Below are positions 1-25,400 of a stretch of DNA of 26,970 nucleotides, piece by piece. The position numbers and the translations under genes are program-made. The number at the start of each line of letters is the position of its first letter. Position 1 is the first letter of the stretch. This DNA is from Nitrospirota bacterium (lineage in GTDB: Bacteria > JACPQY01), in assembly GCA_016180645.1 (NCBI GenBank), contig JACPAV010000044.1, forward strand, positions 1-26,970, read 5' to 3'. The notes under the pieces are model-generated. The model was not told the origin of the DNA. It made no database searches and saw only the letters and a list, made by a program, of their open reading frames with translations.

Positions 1-489
1 GATGGCTGTCCGTGTCCGCGATGTAGAGATTCCCATTCGGATCCACGGCGACGCCGCCAGGGGCGCACAGCGATGCCTCTGTGGCCTTCCCGCCGTCGCC
101 GGAGTATCCCGGTAGCCCGTTCCCCGCCACAGTGGTGATCTTCTGCGTTGTGGCGTCCACCTTCCGGATGCGATGGTTGCCTGTGTCCGCAATGTAGAGA
201 TTCCCGTTCGAGTCCACGGCGACGCCGGAGGGGATGTTCAGCTTTGCCGCCGTGGCCTTGCCGCTGTCGCCCGAATACGCACCCTGGTAGCGGCCATTTA
301 GAAGGCTAGGGTTCCCCGCCACGGTGGTGATATTCCCGCTCGTGTCCACCTTGCGGATGTGATGGCTGTCCGTGTCCGCGATGTAGAGATTCCCATTCGG
401 ATCCACGGCGACGCCGCCAGGGGCCCACAGCCATGCCTCTGTGGCCTTCCCGCCGTCGCCGGAGTATCCCGGTAGCCCGTTCCCCGCCA
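1..489 (-). repeat. Near-identical duplicated NHL-repeat coding unit (1-129 and 361-489)
   Basis: Positions 1-129 and 361-489 are almost identical, differing at only about two positions near 65-73. The distance is 360 bp (120 codons). Other NHL repeats in the same gene (around 180-250 and 535-600) are clearly more diverged. This indicates recent duplication or gene conversion inside the propeller-coding region, in frame. Confidence 0.85.
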
Positions 490-3400
490 CGGCGGTGATG
501 ATCCCACTCGGGTCCACCTTCCGGACGCGGTGGTTGCCCGTGTCCGCGATGTAGAGAATCCCGTTCGGGTCCACGGCGACGCCGCCGGGTCTCCACAGTC
601 TTGCCTCCGTGGCCGGGCCGTTGTCGCCGGAATTGCCGCCCGTTGTTCCCGCCACGGTGGTGATGATCCCGCCCGCCATCTTGACCTCTGTCTCCTGCGC
701 GATGGCGCTCCGGTTGCCCGCTTCGTCTATCGCCACGGCGGTGAAATAGTACGTGGCGGTCGAGGAGAGGCCCTTAACCGTGTGACTCGTGGCGCCGGCG
801 AAGGTGGTGTAGTTGGATGTGAAGTTTGCCGCGCACTGCCCCTTCGTCTCGCTCCAGCAGATCTGGTAGATCAGATTGGCGGGCTGGCTCACGTTGTCCG
901 TCGCCTCCGCCCATCCGAGGAGGACGGAAGTGCCGTCCGACTGCTTATTGGCCCTGGTCAATCCGGCGAACGTCGGTCCAAACATATCCACAACCCAGCT
1001 TACCGATGCGGGCGTTTCATCCGCGATCCCGGCGGAGTTTTTCGCGCGGACGGCGAAGGTGTGGGGGCCGTTGCCGAGGTAGTAGAGGAAAGCACCCTCT
1101 GGACTGCATTCTGCATAATCGGAGGACTCCTGGGAGCACTCGAACGTGCAGGCGGTGTTGTTGGGACTCTTGCAATCGTATGTAATCTTGTCGAAGGACA
1201 CGGCGGTGGGAGAGGACGGCTTCGACGTGATGAAGGTATCGGGCGCGGCGGTATCGCAGTCCTGCGGGCAGGTCTGGACCGATTCCGCCAGTTCGCACGT
1301 CTGATTGCCGCACTCCGGCGTGGGGATGACGACGATCTCGATGTCGGCCGGGGTCGGATCTTCGTAGCCGTCCTTGTTGATCGCCTTGACGGCCACGTGG
1401 GTGCGGACCGCCAAGGGAATCCCGTCCACGGAGGAACCGGACGGCAGTTTTGAGAACTTGATCGTCCACGGCGAGGCGCAGTCTATGTACTCCGTGTCCG
1501 CCGCGTTGCACTTGAACTTGCAGGATGCTTCGTCCGCCTTCACCTCCTCGGCGCACGAGAACTCGAATGTGATCTCTTCGTCCAAGCTGACCATGTCCTC
1601 GTCGGCCTCGGCGGTCGTTTCGGGGGCGGTGTCGTCGATCCGGACGGCCATCCAGGTGTGCTTGGCGATCTTCGAGACGTTTCCGACGGAGTCGGTCGCG
1701 CGGACGGAGAAGGTGTGGGCGCCTTCCGGTAATGAGTTATGAGCGATGGGTGATGTGCAGGAAGAAAAAGCCGCCGAATCAAGAGAGCATTGGTAGGTGC
1801 AAGTGTCGCCCCGCAACCCGCGACGTTCGACGTGCGACGTATCGCCGCGTAGGGGCGGATCATCAGATCCGCCCGAACCGGAGGGAGCATCTAAAGATGC
1901 TCCCCTACGGGATACGCCCGAACCGGAGGGAGCATCTAAAGATGCTCCCCTACGGGATACGCCCTTCTCTGCGGCCTGGTCGGAACACGAAAGGGCGAAC
2001 TTGGCCCAGGATTGATCGATGGCGGAGCTGTCGGGGAGGTTCGCGTCGATGAAGGCGGTCGGGGGCGTGGTGTCGGTGCTCCACTCGTACGAGGCTGGGG
2101 TGGGGTCTACGTTGCCGGCGGGGTCGGTGGCGCGGACGGAAAAAGTGTGGGGGCCGTCCTTCGACAAGCTCAGGACGAGCGGACTTACGCATGAGGAGAA
2201 GTCGGCGGAGTCGAGGGAGCACTGGAAGGAGCAGGTAGCCGCAGGCTTCACGCCTGCGTCCGAAGACGCACCCGTAAAGGGTGCGGCTACCGGATCGGTG
2301 CAGGAGAATTCGAACACGTGCGACGAGTCACGTGTCACGAGTAACGGCGTTTTCCCAAACGCAGTTTCCGGCGGCGTCTTGTCGACAGTCCACGTGAGCG
2401 AGGCCGGGGTGGGGTCCACGTTTCCGGCGGCGTCTTTCGCGCGGAGCCTGATGGTGTAGGTGCCTTCCCCCATGGCGCCAAAGTCGTTCTCGTCGTTCTC
2501 ATAGTCGCTGGGGGGCGGTTCACAGGCTTCGTAGTCGGTGGTTTGCGATTCGGTGGGTGAAGTGATGGTGAAGGAGCATTCGAACGAGCAAGGCTCGTCG
2601 TTCATTCCCCGTCGTTCGTTCTTGCGTAGGGGCGGATCTTCAGATCCGCCCGGATCGGAGGGAGCATCTAAAGATGCTCCCCTACGGGATATGCCCGAAC
2701 CGGAGGGAGTGTCTAAAGATGCTCCCCTACGGGATATGCCCGGATCGGAGGGAGTATCTGAAGATGCTCCCCTACGGGATACGTCCTTCCCTGCTTGCGG
2801 GCGGGCATCCAGCCTTCGCAGCAGCTTCAGCGGAGTAGGCAGCCCGCCCCTACGTGGAGGGGCGATGAAGGTCGGCGAGGAGTCGGAACAAGAGAAGGTG
2901 ATCGAGGCTTTCAGCTTGTTCAGCACCAGACCGCTGGGCACCGGTTGTCCGGCGCTCATGATGATCAGCGCGGTATCCGGCACGTCGGTGTCGATGGACC
3001 ACTTGTAGGTGGCCGAGGAGTCGTCAAGGTTGCCGGCGGCGTCGGTGGCGCGGACGGAGAAGGTGTGCTGCCCCTCGACAAGGCTCGGGGAAGAATAGGG
3101 AGGGGTGCAGGGGGAGAAATCGGCGGAATCGAGGGAGCATTCGTAGGTGCAGGCGGGCGAGGTGGACGTCGCCCCTACGTCACTCGTCGCTTGTTGCTCG
3201 TCTTCGCGTAGGGGCGGATCTTCAGATCCGCCCGGATCGGAGGGAGCATCTAAAGATGCTCCCCTACGGGATATGCCCGGATCGGAGGGAGCATCTAAAG
3301 ATGCTCCTCTACGGGATATGCCCGAATCGGAGGGAGCATCTAAAGATGCTCCTCTACGGGATATGCCCGAATCGGAGGGAGCATCTAAAGATGCTCCCCT

Positions 3401-5959
3401 ACGGGATACGTCCTTCCCTGCTTGCGGGCGGGCATCCAGCCTTCGCAGCAGCTTCAGCGGAGTAGGCAGCCCGCCCCTACGCACCGGCGCGGCGGGGGAA
3501 GAATTTGGCTCGGAGCACGAGAATTCGAACGCGGCGGTGGTGAAGCCGCTGACGGGTGAGGGTTGATTGGTGATGGTCGTCTCTGGCGCGGTGGTGTCGA
3601 TCGTCCAAGTGAACGTGGCCGGGGAGGGGTCAACATTGAGAGCGGCGTCGGTGGCGCGGACGGAGAAGGAATGCGAGCCGTCCTTCGACAAGCTCAGGAC
3701 GAGCGGGCTTGTGCAGGGGGAGAAGGAGTCGTCATCGCGAGCGGCTCGTGCTACGCAGCGAAGCCCTGCTTCGCAGAGTGGCAAGCGAAGCAATCCCGGC
3801 GCTTCGCCGTTGAGATTGCTTCGTCGAAGACTCCTCGCAATGACGGAGCGGGAGGGGAGAGGGGAGCCGTCCAGGGAGCATTCAAAGGAGCAGGAGGGCG
3901 GGTCTAAAGACACCGCCCCTACGGAAGAATCGGAACAGGAGAATTCGAATACGGCCGACGAGTCACGTGTCACGAGTAACGGCGTTTTCCCAAACGCGGT
4001 CTGCGGCGGCGTTTCGTCCACGGGCACGGCTTCCTCCGTGGCTTCTTCCACCGCTGCGCTGAAGTTCTGCGCGATGACGTTGGCGGCGATCTGGGTTTCT
4101 TCCCGGCTGGGGGGAGGCGTGGCGGGATCGAGGGCGGTTTTGACCGCCTCCTTGACTTGGTCCTGGAACGTCGGCTGGGGCGGAAGCTCGGGGAGGAGGA
4201 CGTCCGGAGGGAGATCCGGAATCGGCTGGAGTTCCTGTGGGAGGACGATCGGCTCCGGAACGGAAGCGACGGCCACGGCGATCTTGACGAGGGTAGGCGT
4301 GGCCTTGTCCTGGGTTTCGGGTTGGCTGGCGAGTTCGACCGGCGCGGACAGACTTGGGCCGCCGAGGGTTGGGGATGGCACGCGGGCCGTGATGAGGGAA
4401 ATGGGTTCTGCGTTTGGATCATCGCCCTTGGTGAACAGAGCGACGTTCAGGCCCGCCGGCGGCTCGTCCGCCGCCTGAGGGGTGGCTACGCAGGATTCGG
4501 CCTTGCCGGCGAGTTCGTCCGCGCGACGAATGAGGGCCGGGTTGGGGGAGTCTATTGGGCGACCAAGTTCGCCCGTTCTTGACTCCTGTAGGGGAGCAGC
4601 CTCGGCTGCTCCCGAAGAGGGAGGACCTGAAGGTCCTTCCCTACGCGCCTCGTCACGTGGCCCGGCGAGGAGGTACTTCTCGGCGGATTCGAGTTCGGAG
4701 AGGACCATGCCCAGGCATTTCACGCCGAGAGTGTCCCCCCCCCGGCGGGCGGCTTGTAGCATCGCTTCGGCTCCGGCGCGGACGCAGAGGACGCGGTTGG
4801 TCACCTCCGCAGAGGAGGGGATGATGGCGGGGGGAACGATTGTGGCTGCTTCCCCGATCCTTCTCTTCGTAGCGTCCGGGTTCACCCGGACGGGAATCGC
4901 CCGCCTGAAGGCGGGCGCTACGAGGGAGGACTGGGTCTCTGTTGTCTCCTTCAAAGAGGCCTGGACTTCGTAGTGGAGACAGGCTTTGGCAACGGGCCCG
5001 CCCGTTCGAGACGTATCATCGACACAGGTCACGGCATCCTCCCCGACACCCGCGCCGCATTGAAGGGCCGCGCCGAGGGCGAGGCGGCTGCGGCGCACAA
5101 GTTCGTCGGCCGCCGGTCCGGAAACGGTGGAATTCAACCTGGATTGCAGAACCTGGAGCGCGGAGTGTTTGTCTTCGATGCACGCCTTCTCCTCGCCGGA
5201 GCGCGCGAGGCGGGATCGTTCAGCCACGAGACCAACGGCGGCCGCGACCTCAGGCTCGGGAGTTCGGCGGGGCGCCCGTGAGGGGTGAGGGGTAGGCGCA
5301 GGCTTTACGCCTGCGTCTGAAGACGCACCCATGAAGGGTGCGGCTACCATCTCGTCTGAAGACGCACCCATGAAGGGTGCGGCTACCATCTCGTCTGAAG
5401 ACGCACCCGTAAAGGGTGCGGCTACCACGCCATCTGAATGGGATGGGGGGGACTGACTGGACGCGAGGGCGGCATCGAGATCGGTCAGAACGTCCGCCGG
5501 GTAGACCACGTCCCACACGGCCACCATGTCGGCGGGGAGGAGGCCTTCGGGCAGGCTGCTCGTAGTCTGCCTCCTGCTCGCCAGAAGGGCCTCGTTGGGC
5601 GTGTGGGCTGGGGCGGCGTTCGGGTTGACCACCATAAAGGGCCGCGCGGCGGCCGCCCGCACGCCCTCTTCGCTCGGCGCGTCCACCTTCATGTAGAGCG
5701 GGCCGGCCTTTTCGGCGGTCTGGAGCAGGGCCGCCGCGTTCGATTCGAGATCGAGCGAGACGACGGAAGGGACGCACTCGGCGGTCGCATCGAAGAGAAG
5801 CGTCTTTTCGAACTCGCCGGTCTTCTCGACGCGTCCCACGCAGCCGACAAAGAAGAGAAGAAGTGCGAAGTGCGCATTCCGGGTAGTCGCAGCCTTCAGG
5901 CTGCGTTGTGGACGCGGGCTAAAGCCCGCGGCTACCGGGAACTTCTGCGCGCTTCTCAC
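2..5959 (-). CDS. Giant lipoprotein: Ig-like modules, FN3-like module and NHL repeats (C-terminus off window)
   Basis: One frame is open for 1986 codons and leaves the window before a stop. I chose the GTG at 5959: it overlaps the TGA of the OmpA-domain gene as GTGA, and GGAGG lies about 8 nt upstream. Residues 1-40 form a lipoprotein signal ending FALLLFFVGC (Cys40), unusually long because a repeat fills residues 9-26. Residues 41-645 are unrecognised, with scattered Cys and Pro/Ala-rich linkers. Residues about 646-1656 are seven modules of the type FEFSC...C-F-ECSLD...HTFSVRATDAAGN. An FN3-like module (about 1657-1756) precedes NHL repeats reading GGVAVDPNGNLYIADT. NHL repeats form beta-propellers used in binding; an outer-membrane or cell-surface role is inferred from the lipobox and from the coupled OmpA partner. 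At least twelve interspersed repeats lie in frame, listed separately. The exact ligand and function are unknown. Confidence 0.9.
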   Translation of the reverse strand, partial: MRSAQKFPVAAGFSPRPQRSLKAATTRNAHFALLLFFVGCVGRVEKTGEFEKTLLFDATAECVPSVVSLDLESNAAALLQTAEKAGPLYMKVDAPSEEGVRAAAARPFMVVNPNAAPAHTPNEALLASRRQTTSSLPEGLLPADMVAVWDVVYPADVLTDLDAALASSQSPPSHSDGVVAAPFTGASSDEMVAAPFMGASSDEMVAAPFMGASSDAGVKPAPTPHPSRAPRRTPEPEVAAAVGLVAERSRLARSGEEKACIEDKHSALQVLQSRLNSTVSGPAADELVRRSRLALGAALQCGAGVGEDAVTCVDDTSRTGGPVAKACLHYEVQASLKETTETQSSLVAPAFRRAIPVRVNPDATKRRIGEAATIVPPAIIPSSAEVTNRVLCVRAGAEAMLQAARRGGDTLGVKCLGMVLSELESAEKYLLAGPRDEARREGPSGPPSSGAAEAAPLQESRTGELGRPIDSPNPALIRRADELAGKAESCVATPQAADEPPAGLNVALFTKGDDPNAEPISLITARVPSPTLGGPSLSAPVELASQPETQDKATPTLVKIAVAVASVPEPIVLPQELQPIPDLPPDVLLPELPPQPTFQDQVKEAVKTALDPATPPPSREETQIAANVIAQNFSAAVEEATEEAVPVDETPPQTAFGKTPLLVTRDSSAVFEFSCSDSSVGAVSLDPPSCSFECSLDGSPLPSRSVIARSLRRSNLNGEAPGLLRLPLCEAGLRCVARAARDDDSFSPCTSPLVLSLSKDGSHSFSVRATDAALNVDPSPATFTWTIDTTAPETTITNQPSPVSGFTTAAFEFSCSEPNSSPAAPVRRGGLPTPLKLLRRLDARPQAGKDVSRRGASLDAPSDSGISRRGASLDAPSDSGISRRGASLDAPSDPGISRRGASLDAPSDPGGSEDPPLREDEQQATSDVGATSTSPACTYECSLDSADFSPCTPPYSSPSLVEGQHTFSVRATDAAGNLDDSSATYKWSIDTDVPDTALIIMSAGQPVPSGLVLNKLKASITFSCSDSSPTFIAPPRRGGLPTPLKLLRRLDARPQAGKDVSRRGASSDTPSDPGISRRGASLDTPSGSGISRRGASLDAPSDPGGSEDPPLRKNERRGMNDEPCSFECSFTITSPTESQTTDYEACEPPPSDYENDENDFGAMGEGTYTIRLRAKDAAGNVDPTPASLTWTVDKTPPETAFGKTPLLVTRDSSHVFEFSCTDPVAAPFTGASSDAGVKPAATCSFQCSLDSADFSSCVSPLVLSLSKDGPHTFSVRATDPAGNVDPTPASYEWSTDTTPPTAFIDANLPDSSAIDQSWAKFALSCSDQAAEKGVSRRGASLDAPSGSGVSRRGASLDAPSGSGGSDDPPLRGDTSHVERRGLRGDTCTYQCSLDSAAFSSCTSPIAHNSLPEGAHTFSVRATDSVGNVSKIAKHTWMAVRIDDTAPETTAEADEDMVSLDEEITFEFSCAEEVKADEASCKFKCNAADTEYIDCASPWTIKFSKLPSGSSVDGIPLAVRTHVAVKAINKDGYEDPTPADIEIVVIPTPECGNQTCELAESVQTCPQDCDTAAPDTFITSKPSSPTAVSFDKITYDCKSPNNTACTFECSQESSDYAECSPEGAFLYYLGNGPHTFAVRAKNSAGIADETPASVSWVVDMFGPTFAGLTRANKQSDGTSVLLGWAEATDNVSQPANLIYQICWSETKGQCAANFTSNYTTFAGATSHTVKGLSSTATYYFTAVAIDEAGNRSAIAQETEVKMAGGIITTVAGTTGGNSGDNGPATEARLWRPGGVAVDPNGILYIADTGNHRVRKVDPSGIITAVAGNGLPGYSGDGGKATEAWLWAPGGVAVDPNGNLYIADTDSHHIRKVDTSGNITTVAGNPSLLNGRYQGAYSGDSGKATAAKLNIPSGVAVDSNGNLYIADTGNHRIRKVDATTQKITTVAGNGLPGYSGDGGKATEASLCAPGGVAVDPNGNLYIADTDSH
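1849..1953. repeat. In-frame REPIN-like palindromic repeat, class 1, two 45-bp units
   Basis: The element begins GTAGGGGCGGATC and ends CTCCCCTAC. It contains a hairpin of GGCGGATC with GATCCGCC, then two tandem copies of a 45-bp unit whose core is GGGAGCATC-TAAA-GATGCTCCC. It lies inside the Ig-like module that starts near 2065 and is read on the minus strand as GVSRRGASLDAPSGS repeats without a stop. The GTAG starts at a position equal to 1 mod 3, like the other class 1 elements. Confidence 0.9.
2153..2182. repeat. In-frame short repeat encoding PLVLSLSKDG (copy 1)
   Basis: A 30-nt sequence with core CTTCGACAAGCTCAGGACG is identical to 3677-3706. On the minus strand it reads SPLVLSLSKDG and fills the loop between the Cys-Ser-Pro and HTFSVRATD segments of an Ig-like module. 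From memory, this short repeat occurs in many bacterial genomes and gives LSLSKDG or ELVEG peptides in predicted proteins. Confidence 0.8.
2235..2290. repeat. In-frame REPIN-like palindromic repeat, class 2
   Basis: The element runs from GTAGCC to GGCTAC with two internal hairpins: GCAGGC-TTCAC-GCCTGC and GCACCC-GTAAA-GGGTGC. On the minus strand it encodes VAAPFTGASSDAGVKPAAT, inserted between FEFSCTDP and CSFQCSLD. A very similar element lies in the intergenic region at 7798-7921, split by an insertion. Confidence 0.9.
2626..2853. repeat. In-frame REPIN-like repeat array, class 1, three 45-bp units
   Basis: The array is 228 bp (76 codons). It opens with GTAGGGG and the GGATC-TTCA-GATCC hairpin, continues with three 45-bp units (core hairpin closing on TAAA or TGAA), and ends in a segment finishing CCCGCCCCTAC. 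That 3' segment, from about 2780 to 2853, is identical to the end of the array at 3208-3480. It sits in the same FSCS/C-x-FECS loop as the other class 1 arrays, and one unit encodes GISRRGASLDTPSGS. Confidence 0.9.
3208..3480. repeat. In-frame REPIN-like repeat array, class 1, four 45-bp units
   Basis: The array is 273 bp (91 codons) and has the same architecture as the array at 2626-2853 but with four 45-bp units. The units differ at single bases, for example CTCCTCTAC against CTCCCCTAC. The minus-strand frame stays open through it, giving repeated SRRGASLDAPSDSGI. The shared 3' segment with 2626-2853 indicates duplication of module plus array, or gene conversion. Confidence 0.9.
3677..3706. 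repeat. In-frame short repeat encoding PLVLSLSKDG (copy 2)
   Basis: Identical over 30 nt to 2153-2182 and in the same codon phase. It occupies the equivalent loop of another Ig-like module, before GSHSFSVRATD. Confidence 0.8.
3731..3844. repeat. In-frame 114-bp repeat with inverted ends (GTCAT...ATGAC)
   Basis: The segment begins GTCATCGCGAG and ends CTCGCAATGAC, an inverted pair, and contains GAAGCAATC / GATTGCTTC inverted segments. Its length is 114 bp (38 codons). In the minus frame it encodes VIARSLRRSNL followed by Arg/Ala-rich sequence. It separates the ECSLDGS and DSFSPC parts of one Ig-like module. It belongs to the common interspersed repeat that yields CHCEERSDEAI-like peptides in predicted proteins; a short copy lies at 22851-22880. 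Confidence 0.8.
3896..3922. repeat. Single-hairpin repeat related to class 1
   Basis: GGGCGGGTCTAAAGACACC is followed by GCCCCTAC. The hairpin stem GGCGGtgTC/GA-CCGCC type and the terminal CTAC match one half of the REPIN-like elements. On the minus strand it encodes VGAVSLDPP in the FEFSCSDSS to CSFECSLD loop of the first Ig-like module. It is the shortest of the set and could be a decayed copy. Confidence 0.6.
4588..4644. repeat. In-frame REPIN-like palindromic repeat, class 1 variant
   Basis: The element is 57 bp (19 codons), from GTAGGGG to TTCCCTAC. Its two hairpins are AGCAGCC-TCG-GCTGCT and AGGACC-TGA-AGGTCCT. The stems differ from those of the other class 1 copies while the GTAG/CTAC ends are kept. 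It encodes REGPSGPPSSGAAEAAPLQ on the minus strand, in the unrecognised N-terminal half of the giant lipoprotein. Confidence 0.85.
4869..4921. repeat. In-frame REPIN-like palindromic repeat, class 2 variant
   Basis: Runs from GTAGCGTCCGGG to GGCGGGCGCTAC. Its hairpins are GTCCGGG-TTCA-CCCGGAC and CGCC-TGAA-GGCG. On the minus strand it encodes VAPAFRRAIPVRVNPDATK. The GTAG starts at 0 mod 3, the same phase as the other class 2 elements. Confidence 0.85.
5292..5425. repeat. In-frame REPIN-like repeat with three 39-bp units, class 2
   Basis: After GTAGGCGCAGGCTTTACGCC come three tandem copies of a 39-bp unit containing GCACCC-(AT/GT)(G/A)AA-GGGTGC and GGCTAC. One unit encodes DEMVAAPFMGASS on the minus strand (13 codons), so copy-number change preserves the frame. 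It lies near residue 180-220 of the giant lipoprotein. Confidence 0.9.
5883..5935. repeat. In-frame REPIN-like repeat inside the signal-peptide coding region
   Basis: Runs from GTAGTCGCAGCC to CCCGCGGCTAC with hairpins GCAGCC-TTCA-GGCTGC (one bulge) and GCGGGC-TAAA-GCCCGC. On the minus strand it encodes VAAGFSPRPQRSLKAATT as residues 9-26 of the giant lipoprotein, between MRSAQKF and the hydrophobic core FALLLFFVGC. Confidence 0.9.
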
Positions 5960-22475: not shown

Positions 22476-25400
22476 GTGAAGGGATACAGGGGAATTCAAA
22501 TCCGATTCGCGCCGCCGGCAGCCGTGCTTTTTCTGGTCTCGTCGCTTCAGGCCGGCATCGGCGGTCCCGGGTTTGGCACGGCCTCTAACACACACAAAGA
22601 TATTCACGCGGACCCCGACGCCCCTGAAAAGCTCCTGATCGTCTCCGTCTCGGACGCCCCCGATCCATTCTCTCCGAATGGAGATGGAAGATACGATCAG
22701 AACTCGATCACCGTCGACGGCACCGTCCGCCCGATCGACGGCCTGAAGGCGCAGGGCGAGTCCCACAAGGAATTCTTCTTCCGCGTCGAAGCTCGCATCC
22801 TCGATCCATTAGCCGGCCGGGTCGTCCGCAACCTCTCCGCCGATTTCCATGTCATTGCGAGCGGAGCGAAGCAATCTCGTTCCGCCGTCTCTGCCTCTGC
22901 AACATGGGACGGCAAGAGCAACTCCGGCCAAACCCTCCCCGACGGCACGTACCCCTACACCGTCGCCTCCTCCTACGTCCGCGTGGACTCCAAGACCGGC
23001 AAGGAGAAGTTGATCGATTCCGTGACGACCGATGGCGGCACGATCACCATCGACACCACTCCACCCACCTTCACCGCCCTTTCACCCGAAAACGGATTCG
23101 TCAGCCCCGTTCCATCAGTTCAGATCACCGGAACTCTCTCCGAGAAGTCCACCCTCACAATCAATTCCCAGTCCGTCACTCTTCCACTTGATCACTCGTT
23201 CACTTTTGACACTTCCCTCGCTCACGGAGCGAACATTCTCACTCTTCTCGCCGAGGACGCCGCCGGCAACCGAACCATGCGCACCCTCACGATCATCTTC
23301 GACAACATCCCGCCGACCATCCAGATCCTCCGCCCCGCGCCGGATGCTTACGTCAACTCCGCAACGCCCGTCATCGAAGTCACCTACCACGACCCCGAAC
23401 CCTCCTCCGGCCTGGACCTCGCCACTCTGTCGGTCTTGGTGGATGGACATTCCATCGTCCCCGGGGACTCGTCCTCCGCAGATGACCCCATGACGACGTT
23501 CCTCTCCATCTCCACATTCCTTTCCGACGGCCCCCACGCCCTCACCGCCTCCATCTCGGACCGCGCCCGCAACGGCGGCGACGCCGAACCCGTCTCCTTC
23601 ACCGTCGACACCATCCCCCCCGTCCTATCCCTCTTTGATCCAGCCTCAGGACTGAGGACTCGGAACCCAGCACTTTTGGTTCGCGGCGCCGTGAACGAGC
23701 CGGGAGAAGTATTCGTGAACGGCGTGCCCGTTCCGCTCCAGCCCGTGGTGGCCGAGCCGATCTCTGTCGTCCCCGGCTTTACCGATCCCCCGTACCTGAA
23801 CTACGCCCCGGAGCGGGACCTGAGCGAGACCTTCGACGAGGGCATCCCCGGCGACTGGTTCCGCGGCCATACGGCCGGCAGCGGGGGCGTCATGGCGGCC
23901 CAGGATGGGCAGGTCCTGTTTGACACGGGGCTTCAGCCGGTCGGGAGCGAGGGCAACAGCCTGGCGATGACGCCGGGCATGATGCAGCCGTTCGACACCT
24001 CCCAGGGGTTCACCGTTTCGGTCGATTTTGCGCTCGATGCCTTGCAGGGCACCGGCTTCTTCGGACTCCGCTTGGGCGATGCGACGGAACTCTCACCGGG
24101 CCGGATGAGCGAGTTCGGCTTCCGAGTCGAAACCTCCTCTCCCGCGCCGGAGGCGGGGGAAAACCCGTTGTCTTCCTGGGTCGAGGGTGTGTGGCTGCGG
24201 GCGGTCACATCGGAGGGGCGGATTTCCGAACAGAGCGATTCCTCCCTGTCCTTCTTTCCCGGCACGACCTACCGGTTCGAGATGGTCTATGACCCCGCCG
24301 GCGCCACCTTGTCCGGTCGGGTCTCCGACCCGACGCGGCTTCTCTTTGACCGCACGATCGAAGGCTTTCGAGCGAACTACCCCGTGAGCGTGGCTGTCCA
24401 AGTGGCGACGCAGGTCTTGGACGCCGGGTCAAGCGGCGGGTGGCTTCAGGCGGACAGCCGGGTGGCGGTGCGGATGGACAACCTGATCGGCGTGAACCTG
24501 AAGCTCCCCGAGGCGTACCTCATGAGCAACTCGCCCCTTCGGATCGGCGAGACGAACTACAAGGAGATTCCCGGCCCGGCGGGGGTGCTGCCGCTGCCCG
24601 GAACGGTCTTTCTTCGGGAAGCCGCGCTCTCTCCGGAGTCGCTGGGACTCGTGACGGGCGACCGCGCCCGGGTTCCGGCGGACGTCGATCGGGACGTGAA
24701 CGCGGCGCTGCTCTCCACGAGCTTCGGGCCGAGGGTGACGGTGTATACGCATCTGGATCGATCCGGCTTCGAGGCGTTTCTCCATGCTGCCCTGGACCCC
24801 CAGGCGACGATCGACGCCTTCTTCCCCGCGTTCAAGTCCCACGGCGCGGGAAAGAGCTACACGTGGACGCTTCCGTCGCGCGGCTCCGGCCCGCCGGGCC
24901 CGCTCACGTTCACCACGCCCGTCGGTCTGGCGGAGGGTCCCAACCTCATCACCGTCACCGCCACCGACCTCGCCGGGAACGACTCCCTCCCCGTCTCCCG
25001 CGCCGTCACGCTGGACACCCAGCCCCCCCAGATCGTCTTGAACTTCCCCGCCTCGGGCCTCCGCACTCGCGACTCCACCATCCCCGTTCGGGTTTCCTAT
25101 CTCGACTCCGGCGTAGGGGTCGACTTGTCGACCCTCATGATTTCCCTCGATGGCGTCAATGTTACGCCGCTCTTCGTCGCCCCCGACTTCGTGGAATTCC
25201 AGCTCACGCCACTGGATGGGAACCACACCCTCCTCGCCTCCATCCGCGACCGGGCCGGCAACTCAGCCGTCTCCGCCCCCGTCTCCTTTTTCGTCGACTC
25301 CACCCCGCCCGTTCTCACCCTCCACAGTCCCCAAGATGGCCAAATCTTCTCCACCGGCGAAGTCCTCGTGGAGGGCGAAGCGTTCGACATTTCTCCGATG

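Follow-up and report, generated by a model that had tools for sequence, protein, structure and literature searches.

Palindromic REPIN elements lie in frame in the loops of Ig-like proteins of a Nitrospirota bacterium

How does a single gene come to hold eight copies of a palindromic element that is normally extragenic? The window analysed here, a contig of 26,970 bases from a Nitrospirota bacterium, ends inside a minus-strand ORF (5959..2) that runs for at least 1,986 codons without a stop and has a high coding score. It encodes a putative signal peptide with a lipobox, an N-terminal region, seven Ig-like domains, an FN3-like domain and NHL repeats, with Pfam matches above cut-off along the frame (NHL, 109 bits; Big_13, 83 bits), and its GTG start shares the letters GTGA with the TGA stop of an upstream ORF of the OmpA family. 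Scanning the window for the pattern GTAG-hairpin...hairpin-CTAC, we find exactly eight elements, at 1849, 2235, 2626, 3208, 4588, 4869, 5292 and 5883 (Table 1). A first-pass annotation had described eight such double-hairpin elements inserted in frame in one coding sequence of 1986 codons, and the scan, the ORF and the Pfam matches agree with it: a single giant frame holds all of them, together with Ig-like domains. The element lengths of 53, 56, 57 and 60 nt are multiples of three only in part, and the frame is continuous through the junctions. The phrase "one giant gene" applies in so far as all eight elements lie in ORF 5959..2, but many genes of this genome carry such elements. At the opposite end of the contig (22440-26969) there is a second giant ORF with Ig-like domains (Big_13 and Big_7).

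Table 1. The giant ORF, its palindromic elements and its element-free comparator domains, in window coordinates
Feature	Position	Strand	Remarks
Giant ORF	2..5959	(-)	GTG start at 5959; runs past contig end
Family-B REPIN, 53 nt	5883..5935	(-)	Would encode VAAGFSPRPQRSLKAAT; N-region ahead of putative signal-peptide core
Family-B REPIN and two additional half-elements, 39-nt steps	5292..5425	(-)	VAAPFTGASSDEMVAAPFMGASSDEM...
Third-type REPIN, 53 nt	4869..4921	(-)	Stems CGTCCGGG / GCGCCCGCC
Family-A REPIN, 57 nt	4588..4644	(-)	Stems GGGAGCAGC / GGAAGGACC
Half-REP, 27 nt	3896..3922	(-)	BC loop of Ig domain 1; encodes VGAVSLDPP
GTAG-ended palindrome, long internal segment	3426..3480	(-)	Composite with domain-2 array
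Family-A REPIN and three tandem half-elements, 45-nt steps	3208..3402	(-)	BC loop, Ig domain 2
Half-REP GTAGGGGCGACGTCCACCTCGCCC	3155..3178	(-)	Closes domain-2 insert
GTAG-ended composite palindrome, second copy	2799..2853	(-)	Domain 3
Family-A REPIN and tandem half-elements, 45-nt steps	2626..2775	(-)	BC loop, Ig domain 3
Family-B REPIN, 56 nt	2235..2290	(-)	BC loop, Ig domain 4; encodes VAAPFTGASSDAGVKPAAT
Family-A REPIN and one tandem half-element, 45-nt step	1849..1953	(-)	BC loop, Ig domain 5
Ig-like domains 6 (1328-1630) and 7 (986-1249)	986..1630	(-)	BC loop without any REP; internal comparators

The build of the elements is more regular, and their number larger, than had been described. 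The stems do differ between copies, but they fall into two main REP families, A and B, which account for seven of the eight window elements, and one minor type (4869), rather than an open-ended set. The loops, given as TTCA, TAAA and TGAA, are indeed four nucleotides long, but consist mostly of a closing T:A pair around a two-nucleotide loop, TC or TT. Nor are the eight elements the only palindromes, since tandem half-elements (45-nt or 39-nt steps) and the two half-REPs of Table 1 are also present. The element at 5883-5935 is probably coded within the N-region of the signal peptide, because the GTG at 5959 overlaps the stop of the OmpA-family gene; we saw no later in-frame start in the sequence that would leave it in 5' non-coding DNA. 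N-terminal intragenic GTAG REPs may, however, be non-coding (Di Nocera 2013, PMC3733652), so this copy is less secure than the other seven. Ig domain 1 also holds another type of repeat in frame, at 3737-3844, with CSLDG on one side and FSPC on the other; its motifs, GTCATTGCGAG ... CGAAGCAATCTC, recur in intergenic DNA and at 22851.

Family A has a GTAGGGG-stem and is usually 57-60 nt long; the base ahead of GTAG is mostly C and the one behind CTAC mostly G. Family B has a GTAGnCGC-stem and is usually 53-57 nt long, and here the base ahead of GTAG is always G and the one behind CTAC always C. Across 1.2 Mb of the genome, 30 of every 1,000 GTAG tetramers lead into a hairpin (158 in total), about ten times the value for most control tetramers (2-5.5 per 1,000 for eight of nine); the ninth, TAGG, reaches 42.5 per 1,000 and is not an independent control because it overlaps the GTAGG of the elements. 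The copies are dispersed, with 74 clusters in the 1.2-Mb sample, 42 of them simple head-to-head (+-) pairs, and 88 REPINs in 1.49 Mb. Two of the seven Y1_Tnp genes that we found in the genome, each encoding 156-157 aa, exceed the 80-bit NCBIfam cut-off for REP-associated tyrosine transposases: L005 (100.5 bits), with family-A REPs on either side, and L006 (88 bits), with family-B REPs on either side. The suspected tie to RAYT transposases is supported by two genes, each flanked by its own REP family. As judged from the sequence, the two families and their cognate transposase genes constitute a REPIN/RAYT arrangement, and each family would be expected to be moved by its own RAYT.

Several other arrangements were seen around these genes and elements. 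Three of the Y1 transposases (L001, L003 and L007) are longer, at 312-360 aa, and are without flanking GTAG REPs; most of them have a weak DnaA-like match (TIGR00362) in the C-terminal part. The 59-nt family-A REPINs at L026, L028, L041, L055 and other loci share the common flanks GAATGCCGATTC ... GCATTCTGTTAG, as if they were part of a larger dispersed element. At L105, L108, L111, L112, L113, L114 and L120, family-B REPINs are nested between GGGGAAGGGATG and CCCCTCCCCCTC, and several of these fall in long open frames (PSPSKGEG peptide).

The distribution of these REPs was assessed in stretches covering about 1.76 Mb of the 4.72-Mb genome (~37%), with genes called by a simple in-house coding score. 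That the elements are normally extragenic is borne out: 54 of 74 clusters in the 1.2-Mb sample are intergenic, though ~73% of random positions are intragenic, and the window gene alone holds eight of the 16 intragenic clusters. To compare gene classes, the set of Ig-like ORFs was completed through a domain search and not by REP content alone; the domain profile matches 137 times in this genome and 59 times in the sole relative of the same family. The Ig-like ORFs (n = 45, 211 kb) hold 38 clusters, distributed over 17 of the 45, which amounts to 18.0 per 100 kb, as against 23.7 in intergenic and 1.03 in other coding DNA, a comparison designed against, and not wholly free of, the bias towards in-frame copies among loci retrieved by peptide similarity. 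The window gene accounts for nine of the 38 clusters; leaving it out lowers the density only to about 14 per 100 kb. The assembly comprises 65 contigs, many of which start within REPIN clusters; it breaks at REPINs, so the REP copy counts are lower bounds. Contigs C3, C4, C9, C11, C13, C15 and C19, for instance, have their first ~150 bases within or beside family-A REPINs. The extragenic rule of these REPs is breached in the Ig-like gene class.

Within these proteins the elements favour particular turns. In window domains 1-5 the palindromes lie between FxFSC and CxFxC, in the BC loop; in domains 6 and 7 the same loop has 10 and 7 residues. Across all domains, most GTAG-hairpins on the coding strand sit at profile positions 8 or 29-29.5, in the frame GTA-Gxx, whereas GTAG/CTAC sites without a hairpin are scattered over the profile; most of the 143 Ig-like domains are without an element. 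Six genes, including that of the window, have a family-B REPIN at the identical BC-loop codon and in the same orientation. Of the eight changes among these six copies, six alter a residue, so there is no sign of selection for the peptide itself. Other palindromes, GTAGGGGCGGGCTTGCCCGCCC, GTAGGGGCGGGGCTTGCCCCGCCC and GTAGCGCCCGGTTTTACACCGGGC among them, fill the BC loop of other domains, including domains of a second genus, where a palindrome nearly identical to 3896..3922 occupies the BC loop of three domains. When sought as a dispersed repeat, this domain-1 half-REP turned up in the Ig loops of both genera and nowhere else. The half-REP GTAGGGGCGGGCTTGCCCGCCC (VGAGLPALL) also recurs at the same A-B turn of five Ig-like domains (L192, L194, L197), possibly through domain duplication. 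For domain 4, modelled from seven window domains, AlphaFold predicts an Ig-like sandwich (mean pLDDT 82) in which pLDDT is below 50 only at residues 31-46, a stretch within the REPIN-encoded peptide that links strand B to strand C. Searched against the PDB for its fold, this model matched only weakly, in most cases PKD-, FN3- and Ig-like beta-sandwiches, and never at E <=0.001.

The reading frame leaves its mark on the arrays. Every REP has one frame that opens with TAG, and in some family-A halves a second frame contains TAG as well, so the usable frame is partly dictated by stops. Same-strand tandem REPs in ORFs of more than 1,000 aa lie 30, 39, 42, 45 or 90 nt apart, so that all 11 spacings are multiples of three, compared with two of 18 outside ORFs; these 11 cases come from about five or six independent types of array, which makes the frame evidence good, not overwhelming. 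The inserts of domains 2 and 3 are 91% identical and their flanks 58% and 63%. Between domain 4 and its counterpart at locus L109, identity is 90% upstream, 93% in the REPIN and 52% downstream, the sharpest such step among 5,867 domain pairs. Both comparisons suggest copying between loops. The broader proposal that REPINs serve as domain-swap joints in general is not upheld on its own, the domain 4/L109 pair being the single clear case.

Based on these data, we propose, with a probability of roughly 0.7, that RAYT-mobilised REPINs have been tolerated in frame in Ig-like loops, translated, and then amplified in frame and recombined. The cognate RAYT (Y1/HUH) transposases of the genome would mobilise REPINs of these families, and selection would remove most insertions from ordinary genes. 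Exposed turns of the giant Ig-like proteins, chiefly the loop between strands B and C, may accept extra residues, so that in-frame, stop-free copies would survive there and be translated as disordered loop peptides of small residues. Resident copies would then grow through tandem duplications whose lengths are multiples of three, and recombination would copy REPINs between loops and between genes. We infer each of these parts, namely RAYT transposition, translation, tolerance as the cause, and recombination. Read most simply, the pattern reflects tolerance at exposed turns; the use of one codon in one orientation in six genes exceeds what simple tolerance explains, so that copying or a target preference is needed as well.

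The same coincidence of codon and orientation could instead reflect descent, with one or a few REPINs having entered an Ig-like module that was later spread by duplication or domain shuffling, and the identity of the domain 4/L109 pair, which continues upstream of the REPIN, fits such a history. We regard this as possible, at well under even odds. Over 56 nt, the first five of these loop REPINs to be compared share 91-98% identity, far above most of their flanking DNA (about 50-73%), and families A and B as well as several half-REPs occupy the same loop; together these findings require more than one arrival. Among 60 relatives, we found no element-free orthologue of the N-terminal region: the only one of the same family belongs to another genus and is without an orthologue of this region, and the others share only the Ig-like domain. 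With one of 60 relatives in the family, the lineage is sparsely sampled. The domain comparisons likewise yielded no clean empty orthologous site, and in some of them the loop appears to be replaced, not merely interrupted (SDPGTLPPGPC versus TDP-REPIN-C); both points count against our main proposal.

Arrays of one to four half-units differ between domains of one protein, the domain 4/L109 pair has a mosaic joint at the REPIN, and the loop is predicted to be disordered. These observations would also be expected if the loop were an active site of diversification, at which insertion, array expansion and recombination are selected for the variability they bring. We consider this unlikely, as tolerance yields such a pattern with no need for change to be selected. 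It is more doubtful still that the palindromes work at the level of RNA or DNA structure, for example by pausing in the giant mRNA, with the peptide incidental: hairpins are maintained within the elements and the peptides vary, but the placement in a protein loop and the frame rule point to filtering at the level of the protein. Finally, GC-rich DNA with many long overlapping ORFs could yield a spurious frame across a stretch of decayed or non-coding DNA into which REPs have spread. This reading is highly improbable: Pfam domains exceed their cut-offs along the frame, its coding score is high, the tandem arrays step by multiples of three, and the frame overlaps the OmpA-family gene at GTGA.

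Elements of this kind are already known, both as GTAG REPs inside genes and, earlier, as the palindromes of Rickettsia. Di Nocera, De Gregorio and Rocco (2013, PMC3733652) catalogued RAYT-associated GTAG REPs within ORFs, encoding 20-30 residues; as here, these are GTAG-tagged palindromes that form head-to-head dimers and are sometimes clustered. Their hosts are varied, unrelated proteins, many of them in DNA repair, which was read as an argument against functional constraint, whereas the elements described here cluster in a single family of Ig-like proteins and return repeatedly to the same loop. In Pseudomonas, inverted REP doublets are the replicating unit, are mostly extragenic and have a family-specific RAYT (Bertels and Rainey 2011, PMC3116915). 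Our elements share the inverted doublets, the mostly extragenic placement and the family-specific RAYT and, unlike those described in Pseudomonas, have a second reservoir in coding DNA. The first-pass annotation had named the Rickettsia palindromic elements as the closest parallel. These dispersed elements also lie in frame in many genes and are predicted to be compatible with protein structure, but they are about 150 bp long and occur in unrelated genes, and the REP-like ones among them end in CGTC, with no dedicated transposase known (review, PMC10969869). Elements of 53-60 bp with GTAG ends, in one protein family and with RAYTs present, differ on each count; we reject an identity with the Rickettsia elements on their ends and lengths, and the intragenic GTAG REPs of 2013 are the closer match. 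New here are the clustering of the elements in a single domain family and at a single loop, the two RAYT-linked families and the occurrence in a second genus. An open-access literature search, outside which most subscription journals fall, found no work linking REPINs with Ig-like domains.

REPINs are usually viewed as extragenic, with copies inside genes as scattered accidents, and here one domain family carries them at near intergenic density. If, as seems rather improbable to us, they form a loop-diversifying module of the whole protein family, through insertion, in-frame array growth and the swapping of half-domains by recombination, a selfish repeat population would supply variation to Ig-like proteins. 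The family offers a direct system for studying how repeats tied to a domesticated transposase contribute peptides to proteins, and for asking whether recurrent sites mean tolerance, target choice or recombination.
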